Positions 11,320 through 25,608 of a DNA stretch of 64,000 bases are shown in pieces. This DNA comes from Fimbriimonadaceae bacterium. GTDB taxonomy: Bacteria; Armatimonadota; Fimbriimonadia; Fimbriimonadales; Fimbriimonadaceae. The notes under the pieces are model-generated. The model had not been told where the DNA came from and ran no database searches. It worked only from the letters and a program-made list of their open reading frames with translations. The position numbers and the translations under genes are program-made. The stretch spans positions 124,001 to 188,000 of the forward strand of contig JALHNM010000003.1 in the NCBI GenBank assembly GCA_022843485.1. Reading direction: 5' to 3'. Position 1 is the first letter of the stretch. Each line of letters starts with the position of its first letter.

Positions 11320-12648
11320 CTAGACGCCGACCGTCTGGGCCCAGCGCGGCGCGAGGGCTCGGGCCTGGGGCGTGTCGATCATCGACCGGCCGTGCTTGAT
11401 GAAGTACTCGAACTCCTCGGGGAAGACCTTGAGCGCGGCCGCGACCGGCCAGGCCGCCGCATCGCCAAGCCCGCAGAACGACCGGCCGTCGATCTGTTTC
11501 GTGATCTCCATGAGGAGATCCATGTCTCCGGGCTGCCCGTTCCCTCGGACGATGCGCTCCATGATCTGGAGCATCCACTTCGTCCCCTCCCGGCAGGGCG
11601 TGCACTTCCCGCAGGACTCCATCGCGTAGAACTGGGCCGTGCGCCAGATGAAGCTCACGATGCAGGTGTGCTCGTTGAGGACCATGCAGCCGCCGGAGCC
11701 GACCATCGAGCCGGCCTCCCACATCTCCTCGTAGCCGATCACGGCGTCGCGGAGCCCATCGCCCCGGAGGATCTGGACGCTGGAGCCGCCTGGCACGCAC
11801 GCCTTGAGGGCCCCGCCCTTGACGCCGCCCGCGAGGTCGATGAGTTCGCCGAGCGTGGTCCCGAACTCGATCTCATAGTTGCCGGGCCGATTGAGGTGGC
11901 CGCTCACGGAGAAGATCTTCGTTCCGCGGGAGTTCTTGGTCGAGGCCCCGAGGGTGGCGTACCAATCGCCCCCACGCTCGACGATGAACGGGGCGCAGGC
12001 ATAGGTCTCGACGTTGTTGATGACGGTCGGCCGGTCCCAGAGCCCGGCGACGGTGGGGAGCGGGGCGTGGGGGAACTTGAGCCGGGGCATCCCGCGCTCG
12101 CCCATGAGGCTACTCATGAGCGCGCTCTCCTCGCCGCACTCGTAACTGCCGGCGCCGAGGTGGATGTCGAGGTCGAAGTCCCAGCCCGTGCCGAGGATGT
12201 CTTTGCCGAGAAGCCCGGCGGCGTATGCCTCGTCGATGGCCTGGCGCACGGCCTTGGCCGCGTCGCAGAACTCTGCCCGAATGTAGACGTACCCGTGGTC
12301 GCCCTGGGTGGCCCACCCTGCGATCGTCATCCCTTCGACCATGAGGAACGGCACCGTCTCCATGATCTGCTTGTCCTTGAAGGTGCCGGGCTCGCCCTCG
12401 TCGGCGTTGCAGAGGATGTAGTGGGGGGCGGTCTTCTCCTTCTCGATGCCGTTCCACTTGATCCAGGTCGGGAAGCCTGCCCCGCCCCGGCCCCGGAGGC
12501 CGCTCTTCTTGACCTCGTCGATCACGGCCTGGCGGTCCATGCCGACCGCCTTGCGGAGGGCCTGGTACCCACCCTTCGCCTGGTAGCCCGCCAGGGTGCG
12601 GTACGCCGGGTCGTCGGCGTGCTCGAGGAGAAGCTTGTACTCGGCCAT
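11320..12648 (-). CDS. nuoF: NADH-quinone oxidoreductase subunit F
   Basis: This is the NADH- and FMN-binding subunit of respiratory complex I, on the peripheral arm. The 442 residues include the NADH-site loop GLRGRGGAGFPTWIKW and the FMN region GAGSYECGEESALMSSLMGERG. The C-terminal [4Fe-4S] ligands are ESCGKCTPCREGT plus a distal FCGLGDAAAWP. Its partner subunit E is encoded 2.5 kb upstream on the same strand rather than adjacent, with two prepilin-like genes and a lipoprotein gene between. GGAGA lies 5 bases before the ATG. Length and motifs fit an intact enzyme. Confidence 0.97.
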   Translation of the reverse strand: MAEYKLLLEHADDPAYRTLAGYQAKGGYQALRKAVGMDRQAVIDEVKKSGLRGRGGAGFPTWIKWNGIEKEKTAPHYILCNADEGEPGTFKDKQIMETVPFLMVEGMTIAGWATQGDHGYVYIRAEFCDAAKAVRQAIDEAYAAGLLGKDILGTGWDFDLDIHLGAGSYECGEESALMSSLMGERGMPRLKFPHAPLPTVAGLWDRPTVINNVETYACAPFIVERGGDWYATLGASTKNSRGTKIFSVSGHLNRPGNYEIEFGTTLGELIDLAGGVKGGALKACVPGGSSVQILRGDGLRDAVIGYEEMWEAGSMVGSGGCMVLNEHTCIVSFIWRTAQFYAMESCGKCTPCREGTKWMLQIMERIVRGNGQPGDMDLLMEITKQIDGRSFCGLGDAAAWPVAAALKVFPEEFEYFIKHGRSMIDTPQARALAPRWAQTVGV

Positions 12649-12722
12649 AGGCTCTCCGCATTCTACTGGAGCGCCGGGCCGGGTGTCAGCCGGGGGCCAG
12701 GTCGGCCCGCGGGGTTACGGGC

Positions 12723-13697
12723 CTACCCGCCGTAATCGATCTCGCTGTCCTTCCAGTTGAACGAGCTGTCCGGGCGGAAGAACGCGGGGTAGCGGGTGAG
12801 CGGCGGGTCGGACTTGTCGCTGCCCGGGGCGACCGACTTTGACATCCAGAAAGGCTCCCCAGGCTCGTTCGGGTTGAGGCTGCTCCAGGGGTAGAACTGG
12901 GCGCTCTTCGAGACCCGCGGCCAGTCCGGGATGAGCAACGGGATCGCCGTGGCGTTGCCGCCCACAGTCACGTACGGCCAGCGGTTCCCGTAGATGAAGA
13001 CCCGCTGGTCTCCACCGGTGTTCCACCAGGCGAAGCCCCACACCCTCCCGCCGTTCCTGGCCGGCGGCCGGTCCGGATTGAACCGGCACGGGTTCTCAGT
13101 GCCGCAGTCTAGGGCAGGGTTCGAGACCGTGAACCCGAGGACGTTCTGCCGGTAGTGCATCGCGCTGAACAGCGGCAGGTTGTCCGGGCGCGTGATCGCC
13201 GTCGTCGGCCAGTAGTGAAGCATCCCGTTGAACACCAGGCCCACCCGTTGCGGCTGACGGTTCACGTTCGTGTAGTCGACGTTCTGGAGGCGGCGCTCGT
13301 CGATCGCGGCGAGCGCGTAAGTGTCCAGGCCCGGGTTCTGGATGTAGAACCGCAGTGCGTTCGCCCACATGTGCCCGTCGTCCGAGATCTCGGGCTCCCG
13401 GTCGCGCAAGCCTCGGCGCCACCCTTCCGGGACGACGGTCCAAAACTGCCAGCGCGGGCGGCTGGGGACCGACGCGCTCTCTGATGCGAAGGCGGCCGGG
13501 TAGGTGTCGTCGTAGTCTGCGGAGTAGACCGTGGCCGCGGTCCACAGGGCCTTCATCCTCTGGATCGTCACATCGCGGTCGGATTGTTGGCTCGGGGAGA
13601 GGACCGGCACCAGGGCCGTTCCGAAAAGAAGGATCACCGCCAAGGACGCTGAGAACTCTCGCCCAGTGAAGCGGCGTTGGGGCTTCGTATCGTACAT
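12723..13697 (-). CDS. Diverged prepilin-like paralogue with remodelled leader
   Basis: The 324-residue protein is a clear paralogue of the prepilin-like protein at 14031. The two share [41 protein letters not shown], and a closing FFRPDS.F.W. Its N-terminus differs: the canonical [18 protein letters not shown] is replaced by RRFTGREFSASLAVILLFGTALVPVL. Phe and Glu keep the +1/+5 spacing, but Arg precedes Phe, charged and small residues break the leader, and the [11 protein letters not shown] spine is lost. Prepilin peptidase cleavage is therefore doubtful, and it may be simply membrane-anchored. AAGGAG lies 6 bases before ATG 13697. A canonical terminator ends 16 bases upstream of the start codon. 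Confidence 0.8.
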   Translation of the reverse strand: MYDTKPQRRFTGREFSASLAVILLFGTALVPVLSPSQQSDRDVTIQRMKALWTAATVYSADYDDTYPAAFASESASVPSRPRWQFWTVVPEGWRRGLRDREPEISDDGHMWANALRFYIQNPGLDTYALAAIDERRLQNVDYTNVNRQPQRVGLVFNGMLHYWPTTAITRPDNLPLFSAMHYRQNVLGFTVSNPALDCGTENPCRFNPDRPPARNGGRVWGFAWWNTGGDQRVFIYGNRWPYVTVGGNATAIPLLIPDWPRVSKSAQFYPWSSLNPNEPGEPFWMSKSVAPGSDKSDPPLTRYPAFFRPDSSFNWKDSEIDYGG

Positions 13698-13713
13698 CTC
13701 TGTCTCCTTCAGT

Positions 13714-13748
13714 AAAAAAACGGGGCGAACTAGCACCGACGTTCGCCC
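13714..13748 (-). terminator. Intrinsic terminator in the leader of the diverged prepilin paralogue
   Basis: On the minus strand GGGCGAAC and GTTCGCCC form a perfect 8-base-pair stem with a 10-base loop, followed by C, G and seven T residues. The T-run ends 16 bases before the ATG at 13697 and abuts the ribosome binding site. Its form is textbook. Its place directly before an open gene suggests either a transcription barrier or an attenuator. Confidence 0.8.
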
Positions 13749-13788
13749 AAACGGGGGCACGCTGGCGGAGGCGGCATACGAAAAGACG

Positions 13789-13818
13789 AAGCCCCACGGA
13801 CAAGAGTCCGTGGGGCTT
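13789..13818 (-). terminator. Intrinsic terminator after small lipoprotein gene
   Basis: A perfect 13-base-pair stem (AAGCCCCACGGAC with its complement) has a 4-base loop, followed on the minus strand by CGTCTTTTCG. It lies 22 bases after the lipoprotein stop codon at 13841. Confidence 0.85.
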
Positions 13819-13840
13819 GACGTACGAGCCTGGCTCGAAC

Positions 13841-14020
13841 TTAGTCGTTGATGCCGGCGGTCGGCACGGGTCGGCCCTTGCCTTCCGGACCGGCTTCCTT
13901 GGTCGCGGCGGAGTTCATATCCGCCTTGACCGTTTCCGAGCTAGTGTCTCCACAGCCCGTGACCGCAAGAACGGTGAGGCCGAGGACGACGATGCCGAGG
14001 ATCGTTCGGAGAGTCTTCAT
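13841..14020 (-). CDS. Tiny lipoprotein paired with a prepilin-like gene
   Basis: The 59-residue product has the signal sequence MKTLRTILGIVVLGLTVLAVTG|C23, a lipobox VTGC, and a 36-residue tail rich in Lys, Gly, Pro and Asp ending in VPTAGIND. It should be a lipid-anchored envelope protein. No known family was recognised. It begins 10 bases after the stop of the prepilin-like gene at 14031, with AAGG 8 bases before its ATG, and is closed by a strong terminator. Together these make a two-gene transcription unit like those at 3234/3404 and 18460/18669. Confidence 0.78.
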   Translation of the reverse strand: MKTLRTILGIVVLGLTVLAVTGCGDTSSETVKADMNSAATKEAGPEGKGRPVPTAGIND

Positions 14021-14030
14021 GTGTTTCGCC

Positions 14031-14990
14031 TTATCGGAGAGCGTACTCGCCAGCGGCCCACGCGAAGGTGCTGTCCGGTCGGAAGAAGCACGGGTAGAGC
14101 GTCTGACCGGCGAGCCGCGTGCCCGGAGTCGAGCAGTCGGTCATCCAGTATGGCTCACCGCGGCTTCCGGTCGCCGGGTCGAACGAGCTCCACGGGCTGT
14201 CGTTGACGTTGTCAGCGACGTTCGGCCAGTTCGGGGCGCGGAAGGTGTAGAACCGAGCCGACGTGTCGGCGCGGACCATGTGGTGACCGTTGCCGAACGA
14301 CCAGATGCTGGCGTCGAACGCGGCACCGAGGTACCACCAGGCGTAGCCGTAGTCGCGAGCACCGTTCGGGCCCGCGGGGCCACCCGGGTTGAAGCGGCAC
14401 GGGTTAGCGGTGCCGCAGTTCAGGGCCGGGTTCGAGATGGCGAACCCATCGACGTTGTTGCGGTAGTGGCCGAGCCAGAAGACGGGGAGCTTCGACGGCT
14501 CGGTGATCGCGCCGCCGTTCCAAGCGTGCAGCATGCCGTTGTAGTTCATGCCGACCTTGAACGGGGCCCGGTTCCGGTTGTTGTAGTCGACGCCGTTCAG
14601 CTGGACCGTTCGGCCCGAGCTGATCGTGTAGATCTCAGCGCTCTTGATGTAGCCGAACATCGAGGTGACCCACATCTGAGCGTTCTCGCTCAGGCGCGGC
14701 TCGGTGTCCTGGACGCCACGGCGCCAACCCGAGGGAGCGACGTGCCAGAAGTTCCAGCGAGGGGCGCTGGGGTTTCGGGACCCGTCCGAACCGAACGCGA
14801 GCGGCATGTTGTCGTCGCTGTCCGTGAGGTAGAGCTGGAGGGCGATGCCCGCCTGCTTGAAGTTGTTGAGGGCGGTGGTCTTCTTCGCCGCTTCCTTCGC
14901 CTGGGCGAAGACCGGGAAGAGGATCGCCGCCAGGATCGCGATGATCGCGATGACGACCAGGAGTTCGATGAGTGTGAATGCGCGTTTCAT
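14031..14990 (-). CDS. Prepilin-type leader protein (DUF1559-like)
   Basis: The 319-residue protein opens with [22 protein letters not shown] and [14 protein letters not shown], a canonical class III prepilin leader plus the hydrophobic spine that packs pilin cores. The C-terminal domain is the paralogue of that at 12723 and ends in an [11 protein letters not shown] element close to the family's H-X9-DG end region. It probably enters the membrane via the prepilin peptidase route. Whether it polymerises is unknown. A short direct repeat (TACGGTAGC twice) lies 23-41 bases upstream of the ATG. The gene pair sits between nuoE and nuoF. Confidence 0.87.
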
Positions 14991-15012
14991 CTATGATGCC
15001 TCGCTTCGAGGG

Positions 15013-15031
15013 TACGGTAGCTTACGGTAGC
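15013..15031. repeat. Direct repeat in the leader/promoter of prepilin-like gene
   Basis: TACGGTAGC occurs at 15013-15021 and again at 15023-15031, a 10-base period close to one helical turn. It lies just upstream of the start codon at 14990 and may be a regulator binding site. No -10/-35 pair could be assigned confidently here. Confidence 0.35.
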
Positions 15032-15206
15032 CGAACCCGCACTTCGAGATTCCCCGGTCAAGGAAGGGACTATATACCTACAAGGTAGGAATGCAGCCTC
15101 CCCTGGCTGAGTGCTCCATTAGACGCCCCGACGGGGGTCGGATGTTCGCCGAAGTTCCCTTTTTTCGGAAAGAAATTCCGCTCGGGGAATCGAACGAGGG
15201 GTCGCC

Positions 15207-15848
15207 TCAGCGCTCGGTCGCCCGAACGTGAACCTGGACGACCGTGTCTGCGAGCCGCACGGAGCTCGGCTCGGGCCGGGAACGGAGGTCGTCGATCAGC
15301 CGGTCCACCCACGCCCTCATCTTCGCCTCCCCGCCTTCGTCCTGCAGAGTGGCTTGGGGGTCCAGGTAGTCGGGCCCGACCTGGATGACCGGCGCACGGT
15401 CGCAGGCGTCCAGGCACTCGACCTCGTGGAGGGTGAAGACGCCGTCCTCGGTGGTCTCGCCCATCTTCACCCCGAGCTTCTCCTCCAGGATGTCCGCGAG
15501 CCGGTACGCCCCGCACATGTGGCAGCTCAGGCAGGTGCAGACCTCGATCATGTGCCGCCCCGGGGCGTGGGCCGTGTTGTACATCGAGTAGAACGTCGCC
15601 ACCCCTTCGATCTCGGCGTACGTCCGCTGGAGCCGGGCCGCCACTTCGGCGATCCCCTCGGGCGGCAGGTGCCCACCGTACTCGCGCTGGCTGATCCAAA
15701 GGGCGGGCAGGATGAGCGACTTGAGGTCCGGGTAGTGGCCCTTGAGCGCCTCGAGTTCCTCGACGGCCCGCTCGCTCCACCGAAGGGTCAGGTCCTGCGG
15801 CTGGGGCGCCTTGGGCCGGGCCGCCCCGATCTGGATCAGTTCGCTCAT
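15207..15848 (-). CDS. nuoE: NADH-quinone oxidoreductase subunit E
   Basis: This is the 24-kDa-type [2Fe-2S] subunit of complex I that pairs with NuoF. The 213 residues contain the thioredoxin-like ferredoxin fold with ligands CTCLSC in the first loop and CLDAC in the second (C-x4-C and C-x3-C spacing). The preceding segment GVATFYSMYNTAHAPGRHMIEVCT is typical. A C-terminal tail of about 40 residues beyond the core is lineage-specific. The gene is isolated: upstream is the plus-strand small-protein gene, and downstream (358 bases before, on the minus strand) nuoF is separated by the prepilin modules. Confidence 0.95.
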   Translation of the reverse strand: MSELIQIGAARPKAPQPQDLTLRWSERAVEELEALKGHYPDLKSLILPALWISQREYGGHLPPEGIAEVAARLQRTYAEIEGVATFYSMYNTAHAPGRHMIEVCTCLSCHMCGAYRLADILEEKLGVKMGETTEDGVFTLHEVECLDACDRAPVIQVGPDYLDPQATLQDEGGEAKMRAWVDRLIDDLRSRPEPSSVRLADTVVQVHVRATER

Positions 15849-15972
15849 CGCTGAGCTGAGTCTACCGCCGGTCGATCCCGATCGTCGGCGGCCCCGGGGA
15901 CGGCGAGCCTACCGGGCCCGCCGGTACCCGGGCCGGAAGGGCCACAATGCACGGTCGATAGGAGACAACCCC

Positions 15973-16095
15973 ATGCCCAGGAAGTCCGGCCCCAAACTCG
16001 TCCGCCGCAAGAAGCTGATCTTTAGCGCCAAGCGCGTCAAGCGCAAGACCCGCGCCCTGGCCCGGGGCCGCACGCCCGACCTTCGCAAGCACTAG
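15973..16095 (+). CDS. 40-residue very basic protein
   Basis: The reading frame encodes MPRKSGPKLVRRKKLIFSAK and 20 more residues, about 40% Arg plus Lys, with only one acidic residue. GGAG lies 8 bases before the ATG and a strong terminator begins 15 bases after the stop, so it looks like a genuine monocistronic small gene. The composition suggests a nucleic-acid or ribosome-associated protein, but it does not match L34, L36 or THX by eye. It lies alone on the plus strand among minus-strand genes, starting 124 bases from the nuoE start codon. Not recognised as a named family. Confidence 0.65.
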   Translation: MPRKSGPKLVRRKKLIFSAKRVKRKTRALARGRTPDLRKH

Positions 16096-16110
16096 GTCCC
16101 CTTGAACTGA

Positions 16111-16144
16111 AAAGGCCCGCCCCCATGACCGAGGGCGGGCCTTT
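16111..16144. terminator. Bidirectional intrinsic terminator
   Basis: A perfect 12-base-pair stem (AAAGGCCCGCCC with GGGCGGGCCTTT) encloses a 10-base loop between the convergent small basic protein gene and htpX. The A/T ends of the stem give U-tracts in both directions. Confidence 0.88.
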
Positions 16145-16162
16145 GTCGTATCCGGGTGCCGC

Positions 16163-17038
16163 TTAGCGAGCGTTCTCGAGGGCGGCGATGCGCTCCTCGA
16201 GCGGCGGGTGGCTGGAGAAGAGCTTGAGGAAGTTCTGGCCCCCGCTGATCTTCATGGTCGCCAGAGCGGGCTGGTTGTCCGGCTCGGCGTGCTGGCCTTG
16301 CAGCCGGCGCAGCGCCGCGATCATCTTGTCCTTCCCGGCCAGCTCGGCCGCCCCGGCGTCGGCCTTGAACTCGCGGTGGCGACTGAACGCCATGACGACG
16401 AGGCTGCCAAGGATCGAGAAGACGATCTGGAACACGAGGATGCAGACGAACTGGACGATCCACACCAGGTCCTGGTTCACGAACCTCGAGACCGCCCACG
16501 CCGCGATCCGGCTGAGGAAGATCACGAAGGTGTTGATCACACCCTGGAGCAGGGTCATCGTGACCATGTCCCCGTTCGCGATGTGCGCCACCTCGTGGGC
16601 GAGCACGCCCTCGACCTCGCGCTCGTCCATACCGTGCATCAAGCCGCTCGAGACCGCCACGAGGGAGTTCGACTTCGACGGGCCGGTCGCGAAGGCGTTC
16701 ACCTCCGGCGAATCGTAGACGCCGACCTCGGGCATCTTCGTCAGCCCCGCCTTGCGGGAGAGGTCGTGGACCCGCTCGACCAGCCACCGCTCCTCTCGGC
16801 CCGTGGCCCGGGCCGGGTCGATGATCTGGACCCCGTAGGCCACCTTCGCCATCCACTTCGAGATCGCCAGCGAGATGAAGGCGCCGCCGAACCCGAGCAC
16901 GGCCGCGAAGATCAGCAGCGAAGTGAGGTTCAGGCCCCCGTTAGCGAGGTACGGCCGGATCCCGAAAACCTGGACGACGATGGCGAGCATCGTCAGGATC
17001 AGGATGTTTGTGAGGACGAACAGGAGGATGCGTTTCAT
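16163..17038 (-). CDS. htpX: HtpX-type membrane zinc metalloprotease
   Basis: HtpX is a heat-shock-type M48 protease of the cytoplasmic membrane that degrades misfolded membrane proteins alongside FtsH. The 291 residues include two N-terminal helices (about 5-24 and 38-58), the [26 protein letters not shown] segment and the zinc motif H148-E-V-A-H152. A pair of further helices follows, then the third ligand region [21 protein letters not shown] lies 7 bases before the ATG. It separates nuoD from nuoE, an unusual place, and shares its terminator with the convergent small gene. Confidence 0.95.
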
Positions 17039-17107
17039 TGGAAGCTTCCCACTTGAGTATACGTTGCCGGGGCCCGAGGGGCTCCGGGGCCCAAGCCTGC
17101 ACCGGGA

Positions 17108-18328
17108 CTAGCGGTCGATCTCGCCGAGCACGATATCGACGGAGCCGATGATCGCGATGAGGTCGGCGATGAGGCGGCCAGGGGCGAGAACCTCGAGGGT
17201 CTTGAGGTTCATGAACGACGACGGCCGCTCGTGCCACCGGTAGGGCCGGTTCGACCCGTCGCTGACGACGTAGAACCCGAGCTCGCCCTTCGACCCTTCG
17301 ATCCCGGCGTAGGCCTCGCCCACCGGGGGGCGGTACCCCTCGGTCCAGAGCTTGAAGTGGTGGATGACCGCCTCCATCGAGTTGTCCAGCTCGTGCCGTT
17401 CGGGCGGGGCGACCTTCTTGTCGGTCGTGTTCCAGGGCCCTTCCGGCAGTCCGTCGATCGCCTGCTGCAGGATCCGGCAGGACTCCTTCATCTCTGCGAT
17501 CCGGACGAGGAAGCGGTCGTAGACGTCCCCCACTTCGCCGACCGGGATCTCGAAGTCGAACTCCTCGTAGCACGAGTACGGGTTGCTCTTGCGCAGGTCC
17601 CACGCCACGCCGCTCGCCCGCGCGATCGGCCCGCTGCACCCGAGTTCGAGCGCCTCCTTCCCGGTGAGGACGCCGACGTCTTGCGTCCGCTCCTTCCAGA
17701 TCGGGTTCTCGACGAGGAGGTCCTCGACGACCTGCAGCTTCGTCGGGAAGTCGGCCAGGAACGCCCGGAGCTTGACTTCGAACCCCTCCGGGATGTCGCC
17801 CCTAAGGCCGCCGGGGACGATCCAGGACGGCATCATGCGCACGCCCGAGAACATCTCGAACATGTCGAGCACCTCCTCGCGCTCCTGCATGATGTAGAAG
17901 AACGGCGTCATCGCCCCGAGGTCGAGGGCGTGGGTGCCCAGCCAGACGCAGTGGCTCGCCACCCGGCTCAGCTCCGTGAGGATCACCCGCAGGTATGCCC
18001 CCCGCCGCGGCACCTCGACGCCCAGGAGCTTCTCCACCGCCAGGGCGTGGGCGAGGTTGTTGCCGTTGGCGTTGAGGTAGTCCATGCGGTCGGTCATGAC
18101 CACGCACTTCTGGTAGGTCTGGCTCTCGGCCTCCTTCTCCATCCCCGTGTGCAGATAGCCGATCACGCACTTGGCCCGCACGATGGTCTCGCCCTCGAGC
18201 TCGCAGATCACGCGCAGGACGCCGTGGGTGCTGGGGTGCTGCGGCCCCATGTTCACGATCATCGTGTTCTCGCCGGTCTTCTGGAAGACCGTCTCGGTGG
18301 TGGGCATGAAGGGGCTGTGTACGTCCAT
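17108..18328 (-). CDS. nuoD: NADH-quinone oxidoreductase subunit D
   Basis: This is the 49-kDa-type subunit of complex I that lines the quinone-binding cavity together with NuoB. The 406 residues show the diagnostic N-terminal strand MIVNMGPQHPSTHGVLRV, RTGMEKEAESQTY-like helix IGYLHTGMEKEAE, TDRMDYLNANGNN, and the C-terminal DIVLGEIDR. The protein is not fused to NuoC. No good ribosome site precedes ATG 18328; an ATG 21 bases farther in (MPTTETV) is an alternative. A lipoprotein/prepilin pair lies directly upstream where nuoC would be expected. Confidence 0.96.
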   Translation of the reverse strand: MDVHSPFMPTTETVFQKTGENTMIVNMGPQHPSTHGVLRVICELEGETIVRAKCVIGYLHTGMEKEAESQTYQKCVVMTDRMDYLNANGNNLAHALAVEKLLGVEVPRRGAYLRVILTELSRVASHCVWLGTHALDLGAMTPFFYIMQEREEVLDMFEMFSGVRMMPSWIVPGGLRGDIPEGFEVKLRAFLADFPTKLQVVEDLLVENPIWKERTQDVGVLTGKEALELGCSGPIARASGVAWDLRKSNPYSCYEEFDFEIPVGEVGDVYDRFLVRIAEMKESCRILQQAIDGLPEGPWNTTDKKVAPPERHELDNSMEAVIHHFKLWTEGYRPPVGEAYAGIEGSKGELGFYVVSDGSNRPYRWHERPSSFMNLKTLEVLAPGRLIADLIAIIGSVDIVLGEIDR

Positions 18329-18405
18329 GGGCGACCGGGGTCAGGATACCCCTGAGCGGACTCTACGGCGGCCGTGCACCGGTCGTGGGCGACGTCCCCA
18401 CAAAC

Positions 18406-18443
18406 GACGAGACGCCAGGGTCGATCGACCCTGGCGCCTCGTC
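18406..18443 (-). terminator. Long hairpin after small lipoprotein gene
   Basis: An inverted repeat of 6 + 12 base pairs is interrupted by one A/C mismatch (GACGAG-A-CGCCAGGGTCGA and complement), centred at 18424/18425. On the minus strand it is followed by GTCGTTTG. It closes the lipoprotein/prepilin unit and separates it from nuoD. Confidence 0.75.
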
Positions 18444-18459
18444 CCCTAACCGCTCCCGA

Positions 18460-18672
18460 CTACTTGACGGGGTCGGCGGGCGGGGTACCGCCCTCGGTGG
18501 GGGCGGTCTGGATGTTCGGGGTGCCGCCGGACTGGGTCGAGGGGTCTCCCCCGACCTTCATCTTCCCGACGCCTTCCGGCACCTTCTCCTCTGCGGGGTC
18601 GGTCTCGGCCGCACCGCAACCAGCAACGACGACCACGGCGAGGAGGCCGAGCGCGATCAGAACCCGCTTCAC
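18460..18672 (-). CDS. Tiny Pro/Gly/Thr-rich lipoprotein paired with a prepilin-like gene
   Basis: The 70-residue product starts at GTG 18672 ([19 protein letters not shown]19), giving a short, clean lipoprotein signal with lipobox VAGC. The tail is low-complexity: acidic at first ([16 protein letters not shown]), then Gly, Thr and Pro ([17 protein letters not shown]). The GTGA overlaps the stop of the prepilin-like gene, exactly as at 3404-3407. No known domain was recognised. The length, composition and genetic linkage match the lipoprotein genes at 3234 and 13841, and a long hairpin terminator follows. Confidence 0.78.
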
Positions 18673-19565
18673 GAACCGGTCACCCGGTAGGGCGAGTGCG
18701 CGACCGAGTAGCAGCAACCCGTGTTGCAGTCGGCCTGGTCGATCCAATAGCTCTCAAGTCGGCCCGTCTGAGGGTTGACCTCGGCGTTCGGGCTGTTCGG
18801 CGACCCGTTCCGCACGAACCGGGCGTGGCCGTCGCCACGCACGACGTTCATGCCGTCGTTGAACATCCGCATGTCCGATCTCGTGTACAGGTCGGGTTGA
18901 GCGTTCGTCCAACCTCCGCCGAACACGCCGTACCCGGCCGTGCACTCCGCGCCGCTCCGCTGGAACTTGTACGGCGGGTTGCGGAGACCCCGGAGCCAGT
19001 TGGTCCCGGGCAGGAACATGAGCGGATAGCTAAAGCTCTGACCGACCACGTGGGCCTTACCCGTGCCGGGCCAGAACATGATCACGTCCGCCGGGGACGT
19101 GAACTCGGTCTGGCTGAACAGGTTCAGGTAGCTGTTCATGTGGTAGCCGAGCGAGAACCCGGTGGGGTTCGGGAGCCCGGGGCCCGGGTCGCCGGGGCGC
19201 TGGAACTCGAGGGTCTGCTCCGGGCCCTTCCAGATCGCCCAGTTCTTCATGTAGCCGGACATGGAGTTGGCGTACATGGCGCGGCGGGCGTCCATGGACC
19301 GCTCGGCGGCTTGCCAGCGGTCGGCCGGGGTGACGAACATCCCGACTTGGACACCGTAGGGGTGCGACATCGGCAGCATGTCGTCGTGGTCGCCCGCGTA
19401 CATGATGGCGGCCAGCCCGAGCTGCTTGAGGTTCGAGACGTCCTGCGTCTTCTTCGCCGCTTCCTTCGCCTGGGCGAAGACCGGGAAGAGGATCGCAGCG
19501 AGGATCGCGATGATCGCGATCACGACGAGGAGTTCAATGAGGGTGAATGCGCTTCGGCGCGACAT
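18669..19565 (-). CDS. Prepilin-type leader protein (DUF1559-like)
   Basis: The 298-residue protein begins [24 protein letters not shown] and [14 protein letters not shown]. The globular part has paired cysteines at its end (DCNTGCCY) and a [14 protein letters not shown] segment that is the best match among these paralogues to the H-X9-DG family end motif. It would be processed by a prepilin peptidase and remain in the envelope. Its sequence is only distantly similar to the pair at 12723/14031. A TATAAT box and a 5' hairpin lie upstream at 19621-19649. It is inserted between nuoC and nuoD. Confidence 0.86.
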
Positions 19566-19620
19566 GATGGTCTCCGGATGATGGGGACGCTTGGCAGAAC
19601 GCTTTTGTTCAGCCCGCGCC

Positions 19621-19649
19621 AGCCCCCGTGGGGGGCTAGCTCAATTATA
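19621..19649 (-). promoter_or_regulatory. -10 box plus 5' hairpin ahead of prepilin-like gene
   Basis: The minus strand has a perfect TATAAT at 19649-19644. Seven bases later comes a 7-base-pair hairpin (AGCCCCC/GGGGGCT, loop of 3) at 19637-19621, which would form the very 5' end of the transcript. No convincing -35 element was seen. It implies that the prepilin/lipoprotein pair is transcribed on its own rather than from the nuoA-nuoC promoter. Confidence 0.45.
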
Positions 19650-19668
19650 CGCACTTTGTCCGGATTCG

Positions 19669-20277
19669 TTACCGTCCGCTGACGTCTTCGGTGCCGGTCT
19701 TCCCCTCGAAACTCTCACCCGCGTGCGGAGCGGCCACGTCCTCCACCGCCGGACCTGTGGTGCCGAGCGCAAAAACGACGTCCTCGCCCCCGAGCGGGAA
19801 CTCCTTGCGCAGCGGGAAGCCCACCCAATCGTCCGGCAAGAGGAACCGCTCGCCCGGCACCGCCTCGTTCCCTTCGAAGACCACCCCGAAGAGGTCCTGC
19901 ACCTCGCGTTCTGGGTATTCCGCCCCAAGGAAAAGGTGCTTGAGGCTCGGCACCGATTGCCCGTCGTCCACCGCCACCTTCACGAACACCCGGCTCATGT
20001 GCCGCAACGACATGAGGTTGTAGACGACCTCGAACCGACCTGGAAGGTCGCGCTCGTGCTTCCACGCGCTGTAGTCCACCCCGACGCACTCGCTGAAGTA
20101 GCCGTAGTCGAGTTCGGGGTCGTCCTTCAAGAACCCGACCACCTCGGGGAGTCGGCCGGTCTCGACGCAAAGGAACGTCTCCCCACGATCCTCCTTGACC
20201 TTGACCAACGAGGGCCCGAACCGCTCCCGCACCTTGCGGACGTCCAGCCGCTCGCCCTCGACGACCGGGATCGGCAC
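19669..20277 (-). CDS. nuoC: NADH-quinone oxidoreductase subunit C
   Basis: This is the 30-kDa-type peripheral-arm subunit of complex I. The 202 residues carry the family core: ECVGVDYSAW, RFEVVYNLMSL, RVFVKVAVDD and the signature YPEREVQDLFGVVFEGN followed by LLPDDWVGFPLRKEFPL. A C-terminal extension of about 35 residues (AAPHAGESFEGKTGTEDVSGR) is poorly conserved. Translation starts at GTG 20277, which directly abuts the TAA of nuoA, so the two are co-translated. The next nuo gene downstream (nuoD) is 1.3 kb away, behind the prepilin/lipoprotein module. Confidence 0.95.
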   Translation of the reverse strand: MPIPVVEGERLDVRKVRERFGPSLVKVKEDRGETFLCVETGRLPEVVGFLKDDPELDYGYFSECVGVDYSAWKHERDLPGRFEVVYNLMSLRHMSRVFVKVAVDDGQSVPSLKHLFLGAEYPEREVQDLFGVVFEGNEAVPGERFLLPDDWVGFPLRKEFPLGGEDVVFALGTTGPAVEDVAAPHAGESFEGKTGTEDVSGR

Positions 20278-20742
20278 TTAGAGGCCCCCCTGTCGCACCG
20301 GCACCGGGGCGGGCAAGGCGGCCCGGGCCGCCTCGGCGTCGGCCAGGAGCTTCTCCGGCGCGAGGCTCGTCGCTTCGTCCCAATCGAGCGCCCCGATCTT
20401 CATCACGTAGGCGTCGCCGATGATCCAGAGGATCATGTACACGCCGACGACGGCCCCGCTGAAGAGCTTGAAGTCGAGGGGCGCGTCCTTGAACACCGTG
20501 ATCCAGCTCCAGAGGAACACGACCTCGATGTCGAACAGGACGAACAGGATCGCGACCAGATAGAACTTGATCGGGAACCGCTCCTTCGCGTCGCCCTGGG
20601 GGGCCACGCCGCACTCGTAGGGCGAGGACTTGTAGGGCGTGGTCTTCTTCGGCCCGAGGACCCAACTCAGGGTCACCATCGCGGCGCAGATCACGGCCGA
20701 GACGGTCATGAGCACCAAGATCGGGAGGAACTCGCTCGCCAT
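20278..20742 (-). CDS. nuoA: NADH-quinone oxidoreductase subunit A
   Basis: This is a small membrane subunit of complex I near the quinone site. The 154 residues have three membrane helices (about 5-29, 63-86 and 92-113) and the conserved loop YECGVAPQGDAKERFPIKFYLVAILFVLFDIEVVFLWSW. The C-terminal tail of about 40 residues is longer than in Escherichia coli. It is the first nuo gene on the minus strand and is followed without a gap by nuoC; nuoB, normally between them, is on the plus strand at 23443. It is divergent from trpD. Confidence 0.95.
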   Translation of the reverse strand: MASEFLPILVLMTVSAVICAAMVTLSWVLGPKKTTPYKSSPYECGVAPQGDAKERFPIKFYLVAILFVLFDIEVVFLWSWITVFKDAPLDFKLFSGAVVGVYMILWIIGDAYVMKIGALDWDEATSLAPEKLLADAEAARAALPAPVPVRQGGL

Positions 20743-20866
20743 CGACGCGATTCTACTCTCCCGTCAGCCCACCGTCACCGTCGGCCCAATCCCCAGCGGC
20801 CGGGCCGCACCGCCCGAAGGCCGACACCCGAACCCCGTCCCGGCCCCACCCAGTACACTGACGCCG

Positions 20867-24539: not shown

Positions 24540-24600
24540 CCCGACACACCTTTCCGCTGTGCCGACGGGAGCGTCCCCCTGCCGCGTAGAATGCGGGGTC

Positions 24601-25608
24601 ATGACCAAAGGCTTCCTCTGGTTCACTGTCCTCGCGCTCGCCCTTGTCGGATGCACCGGCGGCGGAGGCGGAAGCACGACCACGTCCTCCCCCGCCGCCC
24701 AGCCGGCCGACGCCGGGTTCAAGGTCGCCCTCCTCACCCCCGGGCCGGTGAGCGACGCCGGGTGGAGCGCGATGGCCTACCGCGGCCTCCAGGCGATCGA
24801 GAAGGAGCTCGGGGCAGAGGTCAACAACCAGCAGGCCACCGACGCCCAGATTCGCGACGCCATGCGTAGCTACGCGCAGAAGGGGTACCGCCTGGTGATC
24901 GGCCACGGGTTCGAGTACAACGGTCCGGGCGTCGAGGTGGCCAAGGACTTCCCGAACACCGTGTTCGTCAGCAGTTCGGGCGCCGGGAGCTCGGCCAACG
25001 CCGGCGCGATCCGGTTCGGGCTCGAAGAAGGCTTCTACCTCGCCGGGATGGCCGCCGCCCTGACTTCGAAGACGGGCCGACTCGCGATGATCGGCGGCCC
25101 GGACGTCCCCTCGATCCGCTCCACCTTCAAGGCCTTCAAGGCCGGAGCCGAGGCGGCGAAGCCCGGGATTCAAGTGAGCGATAGCTTCACCGGCAAGAAC
25201 GACGACATCGCCGCCGCCCGCCAGGCGACTCTTGCCGCCCTCGGGCAGGGGGCCGACGTCGTCATCCACCAGGCCAACGCCGCCGCGCAGGGGGTCTTCG
25301 ACGCGGCCAAGGAGAAGGGGGCCCTCGCCTTCGGGGCCAACCTGGACCAGAACGACAACCCGAGCGGGGTCGTCCTGGCGAGCGCGGTCATCGTCGCCGA
25401 GCCCGCGTTCGTCGCGCTCGCCCGGTCGGTGAAGGACGGGAGCTACAAAGGCGGCGTCCAGCTCATGGCGATGAAGGACGGGGCGATCGACTTCGTCTGG
25501 AACCCCGCGCTCGCCTCTCGGGTCCCGCCCGGAGTGGCCGCTCGGATCGACCAGGCCAAGGCCGACATCAAGGCGGGCAAGCTCGCCGTCCCGATGGATC
25601 AGTTCTGA
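24601..25608 (+). CDS. BMP-family substrate-binding lipoprotein of ABC importer
   Basis: The 335-residue protein has a lipoprotein signal (MTKGFLWFTVLALALVG|C18), a Gly/Thr/Ser-rich linker and a BMP/Med family periplasmic-binding domain: FKVALLTPGPVSDAGWSAMAYRGL, VIGHGFEY, GFYLAGMAAALTSKTGRLAMIGG, VIHQANAAAQGVFDAAKEKG. Known BMP proteins bind nucleosides (PnrA, BmpA) or related ligands. It starts a four-gene import operon. ATG 24601 was chosen because the lipoprotein signal begins there. Substrate is not certain; the downstream pterin/deazapurine-type enzyme points to a purine-like compound. Confidence 0.92.
   Translation: MTKGFLWFTVLALALVGCTGGGGGSTTTSSPAAQPADAGFKVALLTPGPVSDAGWSAMAYRGLQAIEKELGAEVNNQQATDAQIRDAMRSYAQKGYRLVIGHGFEYNGPGVEVAKDFPNTVFVSSSGAGSSANAGAIRFGLEEGFYLAGMAAALTSKTGRLAMIGGPDVPSIRSTFKAFKAGAEAAKPGIQVSDSFTGKNDDIAAARQATLAALGQGADVVIHQANAAAQGVFDAAKEKGALAFGANLDQNDNPSGVVLASAVIVAEPAFVALARSVKDGSYKGGVQLMAMKDGAIDFVWNPALASRVPPGVAARIDQAKADIKAGKLAVPMDQF

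Follow-up and report, generated by a model that had tools for sequence, protein, structure and literature searches.

A terminator-like hairpin ahead of a diverged pilin paralogue in a complex I gene cluster

How is a gene expressed when its reading frame is intact and its ribosome site is strong, and a hairpin resembling an intrinsic terminator ends just before that ribosome site? This question is raised by the ORF at positions 12723–13697 (minus strand; 324 aa, QRRFTGREFSASLAV...) of the window, that is, the whole stretch of 64,000 nt analysed here (C3:124001–188000, in a genome of 2.96 Mb and 20 contigs). The original prediction was that the gene is transcribed only by antitermination or is effectively silenced and decaying, with regulation being favoured. 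For comparison, we used a sample of 364 kb of the 2.96 Mb (the window and 15 further stretches; 68% GC), in which genes were called with a home-made caller, with some small false genes among the calls.

The ORF lies in a complex I (nuo) gene cluster with embedded pilin-like genes, all on the minus strand. Read along that strand, the cluster contains a pilin gene (18669–19565) with a small partner ORF (18460–18672), nuoD (17108–18328), an HtpX-like gene (16163–17038), nuoE (15207–15848, by Pfam), a second pilin gene with an intact N-terminal motif (14031–14990, hereafter pilin 14031) and its partner gene for a lipoprotein-like protein of 59 aa (13841–14020, MKTLRTILGIVVLGLTVLAVTGCGD...), the ORF in question, and nuoF (11320–12648, by Pfam). 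The genes that we take to be nuoC, nuoD, and HtpX were named from the look of their sequences. Small genes resembling 13841–14020 were found behind the pilins of many relatives. The other pilin/small-ORF pair is closed by a 15-bp hairpin (ΔG −31) at 18408–18441, 79 nt before nuoD.

The paralogue and its N-terminus

The product of 12723–13697 aligned with pilin 14031 over the full length (approximately 42% identity, E = 9.4e-78), which makes it a homologue of prepilins in its globular part. The two genes had been described as tandem paralogues; they are homologous but not adjacent, because the lipoprotein-like ORF 13841–14020 lies between them. The description of the product as a prepilin had to be abandoned, since its N-terminus is not a prepilin signal: no Pfam or NCBIfam match to the prepilin N-terminal cleavage/methylation motif was found in 12723–13697, unlike in pilins 14031 and 18669, and 37 sites elsewhere in the genome passed the N_methyl cut-off. 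Prepilin cleavage needs G or A at position −1. Although 12723–13697 shares with type IV prepilins of the N_methyl type (PF07963, TIGR02532) its whole-length homology to a motif-bearing pilin, it has R rather than A or G at −1 and GR rather than LI at positions 3–4. The residues of RRFTGREFSASLAVILLFGTALVPVL suggest a membrane anchor or a signal peptide and not a prepilin leader that could be cleaved, and the product is probably uncleaved.

The loss is concentrated at the N-terminus. When compared with 18 motif-bearing relatives, the protein kept eight of the 25 invariant positions in its first 36 residues and 23 of the 32 conserved C-terminal positions thereafter, whereas pilin 14031 kept 25 of 25 and 28 of 32, respectively; the near-invariance of the motif in these rows is partly by construction, because a prepilin-motif search supplied the sequences for the tree and for alignments A1 and A2, and this search missed the motif-less and start-less copies of G053, the one further genome from the same genus. 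In the tree, the branch of 12723 was 1.77 long, as against 0.66 for pilin 14031, and their pairing had a support of 90/64. A PDB sequence search with A1 hit pilins in their N-terminal part only and was uninformative on the motif-less protein, and an AlphaFold2 model (9 rows) was discarded at a pLDDT of 34.

The predicted intact frame was confirmed (324 codons), with a GC3 of 0.90. When neutral change to 42% identity was simulated with substitutions only, without indels, two of 200 runs remained free of stop codons. Because the frame is intact, GC3 is high, the conserved C-terminal residues are kept, and stop-free simulations are rare, the gene appears to be changing fast and does not look like a product of neutral decay; the same grounds argue against a pseudogene with a broken frame or lost constraint. 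Silent donor cassettes of the pilS kind have long DNA identity with the expressed copy. No 12-mer is shared between 12723 and 14031, and cassette recombination was rejected.

Two hairpins before the start codon

What had been predicted about the hairpin nearest the gene (T2, 13714–13748, minus strand) was confirmed. It consists of GGGCGAAC-10 nt-GTTCGCCC at 13748–13723, a perfect 8-bp stem (six GC pairs) with a loop of 10 nt and ΔG −13.7, followed after CG by seven Ts (13720–13714), ACT, the Shine–Dalgarno (SD) sequence GAAGGAG (13710–13704, 6 nt before the start codon), and the ATG at 13697. The last T of the tail is 16 nt from the ATG, and the stem and the T-run, which begins after 2 nt, are those of an intrinsic terminator. 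A second terminator was predicted 41 nt farther upstream, and a 13-bp hairpin (T1, 13789–13818, ΔG −26.9) does stand there, at the end of the pilin–lipoprotein unit; however, the gap between the stems is 40 nt, and its T tail (CGTCTTTT; the weaker tail is given as CGTCTTTTCG) is poorer than that of T2, although T1 is the more stable hairpin.

The T-run distinguishes T2 more than the hairpin does. Runs of at least six Ts occurred eight times on both strands of the 364 kb, and only two of these were of length 7; both directly follow a stem of 8–9 bp. When the 60 nt upstream of the T7 run were shuffled, a stem of the quality of T2 arose before it in 1.1% of 20,000 shuffles. The hairpin alone is unremarkable in a 68% GC genome (z = −0.96 for a 63-nt fold), and a hairpin of ΔG −12 or lower lay within 80 nt of the start in 38 of 156 sampled genes; only two of these 156 had such a hairpin followed by at least five Ts, 12723–13697 being one. 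Among 52 terminator-like sites with ΔG −9 or lower, 29 were intergenic and four were followed within 40 nt by a start on their own strand. T2 was missed by a consensus terminator scanner because the scanner's loop limit is 8. In the genome itself, the DNA from T1 through T2 and the leader matched only itself and four weak sites (E = 0.49 to 3.2), none spanning the whole of T2. T2 is therefore a real-looking terminator as far as its sequence goes, and we infer that it terminates transcription in vivo. Another inverted repeat, GCGAAC-N6-14-GTTCGC, occurred at 17 places in the genome, compared with three for a reversed control.

Routes of transcription into the gene

The strength of the ribosome site, which had been predicted from AAGGAG, was borne out: with a score of 6, GAAGGAG is among the strongest sampled, and a score of 5 was reached by only 38 of 264 genes. 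No −10-like TANNNT was found within 110 nt of the ATG of 12723–13697, whereas 96 of 156 comparable sampled genes had one within about 85 nt of the start. Between T1 and the ATG, no sequence scored above 3.6 bits as a sigma-70-like promoter (the 90% point of random 120-mers is 6.3), and no sigma-54 site was found between 13698 and 13840, the matches to that pattern in the window being fewer than in shuffles. The missing −10 is weak, suggestive evidence, because eight of 17 strong-SD genes (SD 5 or more) also lacked TANNNT in the upstream window. A near-leaderless TANNNT, 4–13 nt before the start, was present in none of the 17 strong-SD genes; it was present in 41 of the 103 SD-poor genes whose upstream gap is at least 60 nt and in seven of 79 genes whose gap is below 30 nt. 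The SD of 12723–13697 therefore implies a transcript that includes the T2 region. A −10-like TATAGT lies 78 nt before the ATG of pilin 14031 and is presumed to be the source of upstream transcription, which would also serve 12723–13697.

Since the terminator looks real, no promoter-like site intervenes, and the ORF appears maintained, any expression of 12723–13697 is most simply explained by read-through. We tentatively favour, at somewhat under an even chance, the reading that T2 works as an intrinsic terminator and, as a simple attenuator, throttles the gene behind it, which is reached by leaky read-through from the pilin–lipoprotein unit. Transcripts would start at the promoter-like site before pilin 14031 and run through the pilin and lipoprotein genes; most would stop at T1 and nearly all of the remainder at T2, and the few that get past both would be translated efficiently from GAAGGAG, so that the diverged, probably uncleaved paralogue would be kept low relative to the abundant pilin. 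The leak would presumably be constitutive rather than switched. This reading is supported by T7 runs that occur only behind stems in the sampled genome (2/2), the absence of a near −10, the strong SD, the maintained ORF, and terminator-like hairpins between pilins and downstream genes in three relatives (G066, G045 with two, and G083). Against it, the CG between the T2 stem and its T-run is not ideal, strong-SD genes equally without TANNNT are common in the sample (the eight of 17 above), and, T1 being strong, little transcript may reach T2. If T2 works, the locus shows how dosage can be held low while the copy of an abundant filament subunit changes its function: the paralogue has lost its assembly signal but not its outer domain, and its transcription is throttled.

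The alternatives differ in where they place the promoter and in whether the gene is expressed. It is rather unlikely that 12723–13697 has a promoter of its own that our models missed, for another sigma factor or as a weak near-leaderless site overlapping T2, with T2 serving only to insulate the gene from upstream transcription. Near-leaderless promoters are common in this genome and conserved, as before nuoF; there is one precedent of a terminator overlapping such a promoter (L098, gene 16520, TAGACT 6 nt before GTG); and a score of 3.6 in a near-leaderless position was reached by 6.7% of random stretches. However, the candidate −10, TTTACT (13716–13711), lacks the A at position 2 seen in strong examples, a start there would remove the strong SD, and the region has no sigma-54-like site. 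The gene might instead be effectively silent under relaxed constraint, its promoter lost at duplication and two terminators completing the silencing, which we regard as unlikely. The long branch, the lost prepilin motif, the lack of a partner lipoprotein gene and of a visible promoter, and broken pilin copies in the genome of the same genus all fit this explanation, but the intact 324-codon frame, the GC3, the conserved C-terminal residues, and the strong SD do not, nor does the observation that the motif was seemingly lost twice, both times with open frames.

Regulated opening of T2 was considered separately. An Rfam search of 12500–15500 yielded no usable element (two matches at E = 3.7 and 4.7, far below the gathering scores and outside the leader). 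Folding revealed T2 and weak base pairing between the SD region and the tail of T1 (GUCUUUU), with no strong structure competing with T2; the 91-nt leader fold was not beyond shuffles (z = −1.08). A hypothetical leader ORF (MPPPPACPRLGERRC, ATG to TAG, 13777–13730, 15 codons, proline-rich) ends with its stop codon (13732–13730) at the border of the loop and the 3′ arm of T2. A ribosome halted at this stop would sit over the hairpin; translation of the ORF to its end would thereby keep T2 open, and the gene would be expressed only then. The same logic has been demonstrated for Pil1 of Streptococcus gallolyticus, in which translation of a short leader ORF opens an intrinsic terminator upstream of a pilus gene (PMC3894217). 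That system has a leader ribosome-binding site, GCAGA repeats, a mapped promoter, and a sortase-type pilus (PMC3894217), whereas at 12723 no leader ribosome-binding site, repeats, or promoter were seen and the gene is type IV pilin-like. Inspection of the leader ORF found neither an SD nor a −10 before its ATG, and with the hairpin held fixed, an ATG leader of this kind arose in 5.6% of shuffles and one with any start codon in 48%. We consider leader-peptide attenuation improbable, and very improbable the specific version in which ribosome-dependent antitermination by the MPPPPACPRLGERRC leader couples a non-cleaved pilin paralogue in a complex I cluster to polyproline translation. The regulation originally proposed is partly supported, by the real-looking terminator, the lack of a promoter-like site between it and the gene, and the apparently maintained ORF, but no dedicated antiterminator was found by Rfam, folding, or inspection of the leader ORF.

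Downstream of the gene, nuoF has a promoter-like GTAGAAT with its start codon at 12646–12666. GTAGAAT-N6-12-ATG occurred three times in the window, against an expectation of 0.04; the other sites are at 20740–20756 and 24586–24603, and one of the three precedes the ORF 20278–20742. Of the 78 genomes in which nuoF was matched, 30 were surveyed; a near-leaderless TAGAAT (GTAGAAT, 6–14 nt before the ATG) was present before nuoF at 25 of the 30 family loci (L217–L246), with TAGACT in one genome; at the five loci without TAGAAT, nuoE lies 11–14 nt upstream of nuoF. With its own conserved promoter-like site, nuoF is therefore independent of T1 and T2.

Homologues in related genomes

Matches at E = 1e-10 were found in 62 of 85 family genomes, including the genome itself, and the homologues in other genomes were at most about 37% identical. 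The best match kept the prepilin motif in all 19 of the other genomes inspected at its N-terminus (L009–L027). A scan of named genomes with the 12723 protein gave no relative; in a second scan, with alignment A2, all 80 loci were scanned with tblastn and only L106–L108 were used further, the nearest named relative being a Fimbriimonadales MAG (L106), which makes membership of that order probable for this organism. Searches of an open-access collection, judged by titles and the beginnings of abstracts, gave no paper on this locus; work on it may be in print elsewhere.

G053 carries two tandem motif-less homologues in its nuo cluster, upstream of nuoD (L079:14382–16299; MSPRLSYAEVFF... and MLNFTSKDFAVC...). 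The hypothesis that the three motif-less genes share one origin was rejected (p-AU = 0.016 for the full length and 0.0017 for the C-terminal part), with the caveats that the branches are long and that the group was named after being seen; from these sequences, the prepilin signal appears to have been lost independently in G053 and in 12723. No T2-like hairpin was found before the two G053 genes, and T2 therefore does not consistently accompany the loss of the motif. In the nuoE–nuoF interval of G053, gaps of 190–228 nt lie between the tandem pilins; two of the three gaps contain a terminator whose stem ends 136–146 nt before the next start, leaving room for a promoter that the gap from T2 to the ATG does not offer. 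The same cluster holds a pilin frame that opens just after an in-frame TGA and has no start codon before the motif (L079:11978–12955) and a fragmentary pilin remnant (L079:17314–17957), both apparently decaying copies.

Terminator-like hairpins between a pilin and the lipoprotein gene immediately behind it, at L075, L077, and L080, are possible subunit-ratio attenuators. The hairpins between pilin and lipoprotein genes in G066, G045, and G083 resemble T2 in being terminator-like and in lying between a pilin and a downstream gene; however, they directly follow the pilin stop codon, whereas T2 comes after both the lipoprotein gene and another terminator. With pilin cassettes, often self-terminated, inside or beside the complex I cluster of many family genomes, and with nuoF under its own conserved promoter-like site, the setting is a natural case of insulation inside a gene cluster. 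In many genomes of the family, pilin genes stand among or beside nuo genes, frequently together with a terminator and a small gene for a lipoprotein (window 11320–20742; L073, L077, L079, L080, L083, L084, L085, L088, and L107), and a prepilin motif was found within 1.5 kb upstream of nuoF at 10 of 30 loci and downstream of it at six of 30.
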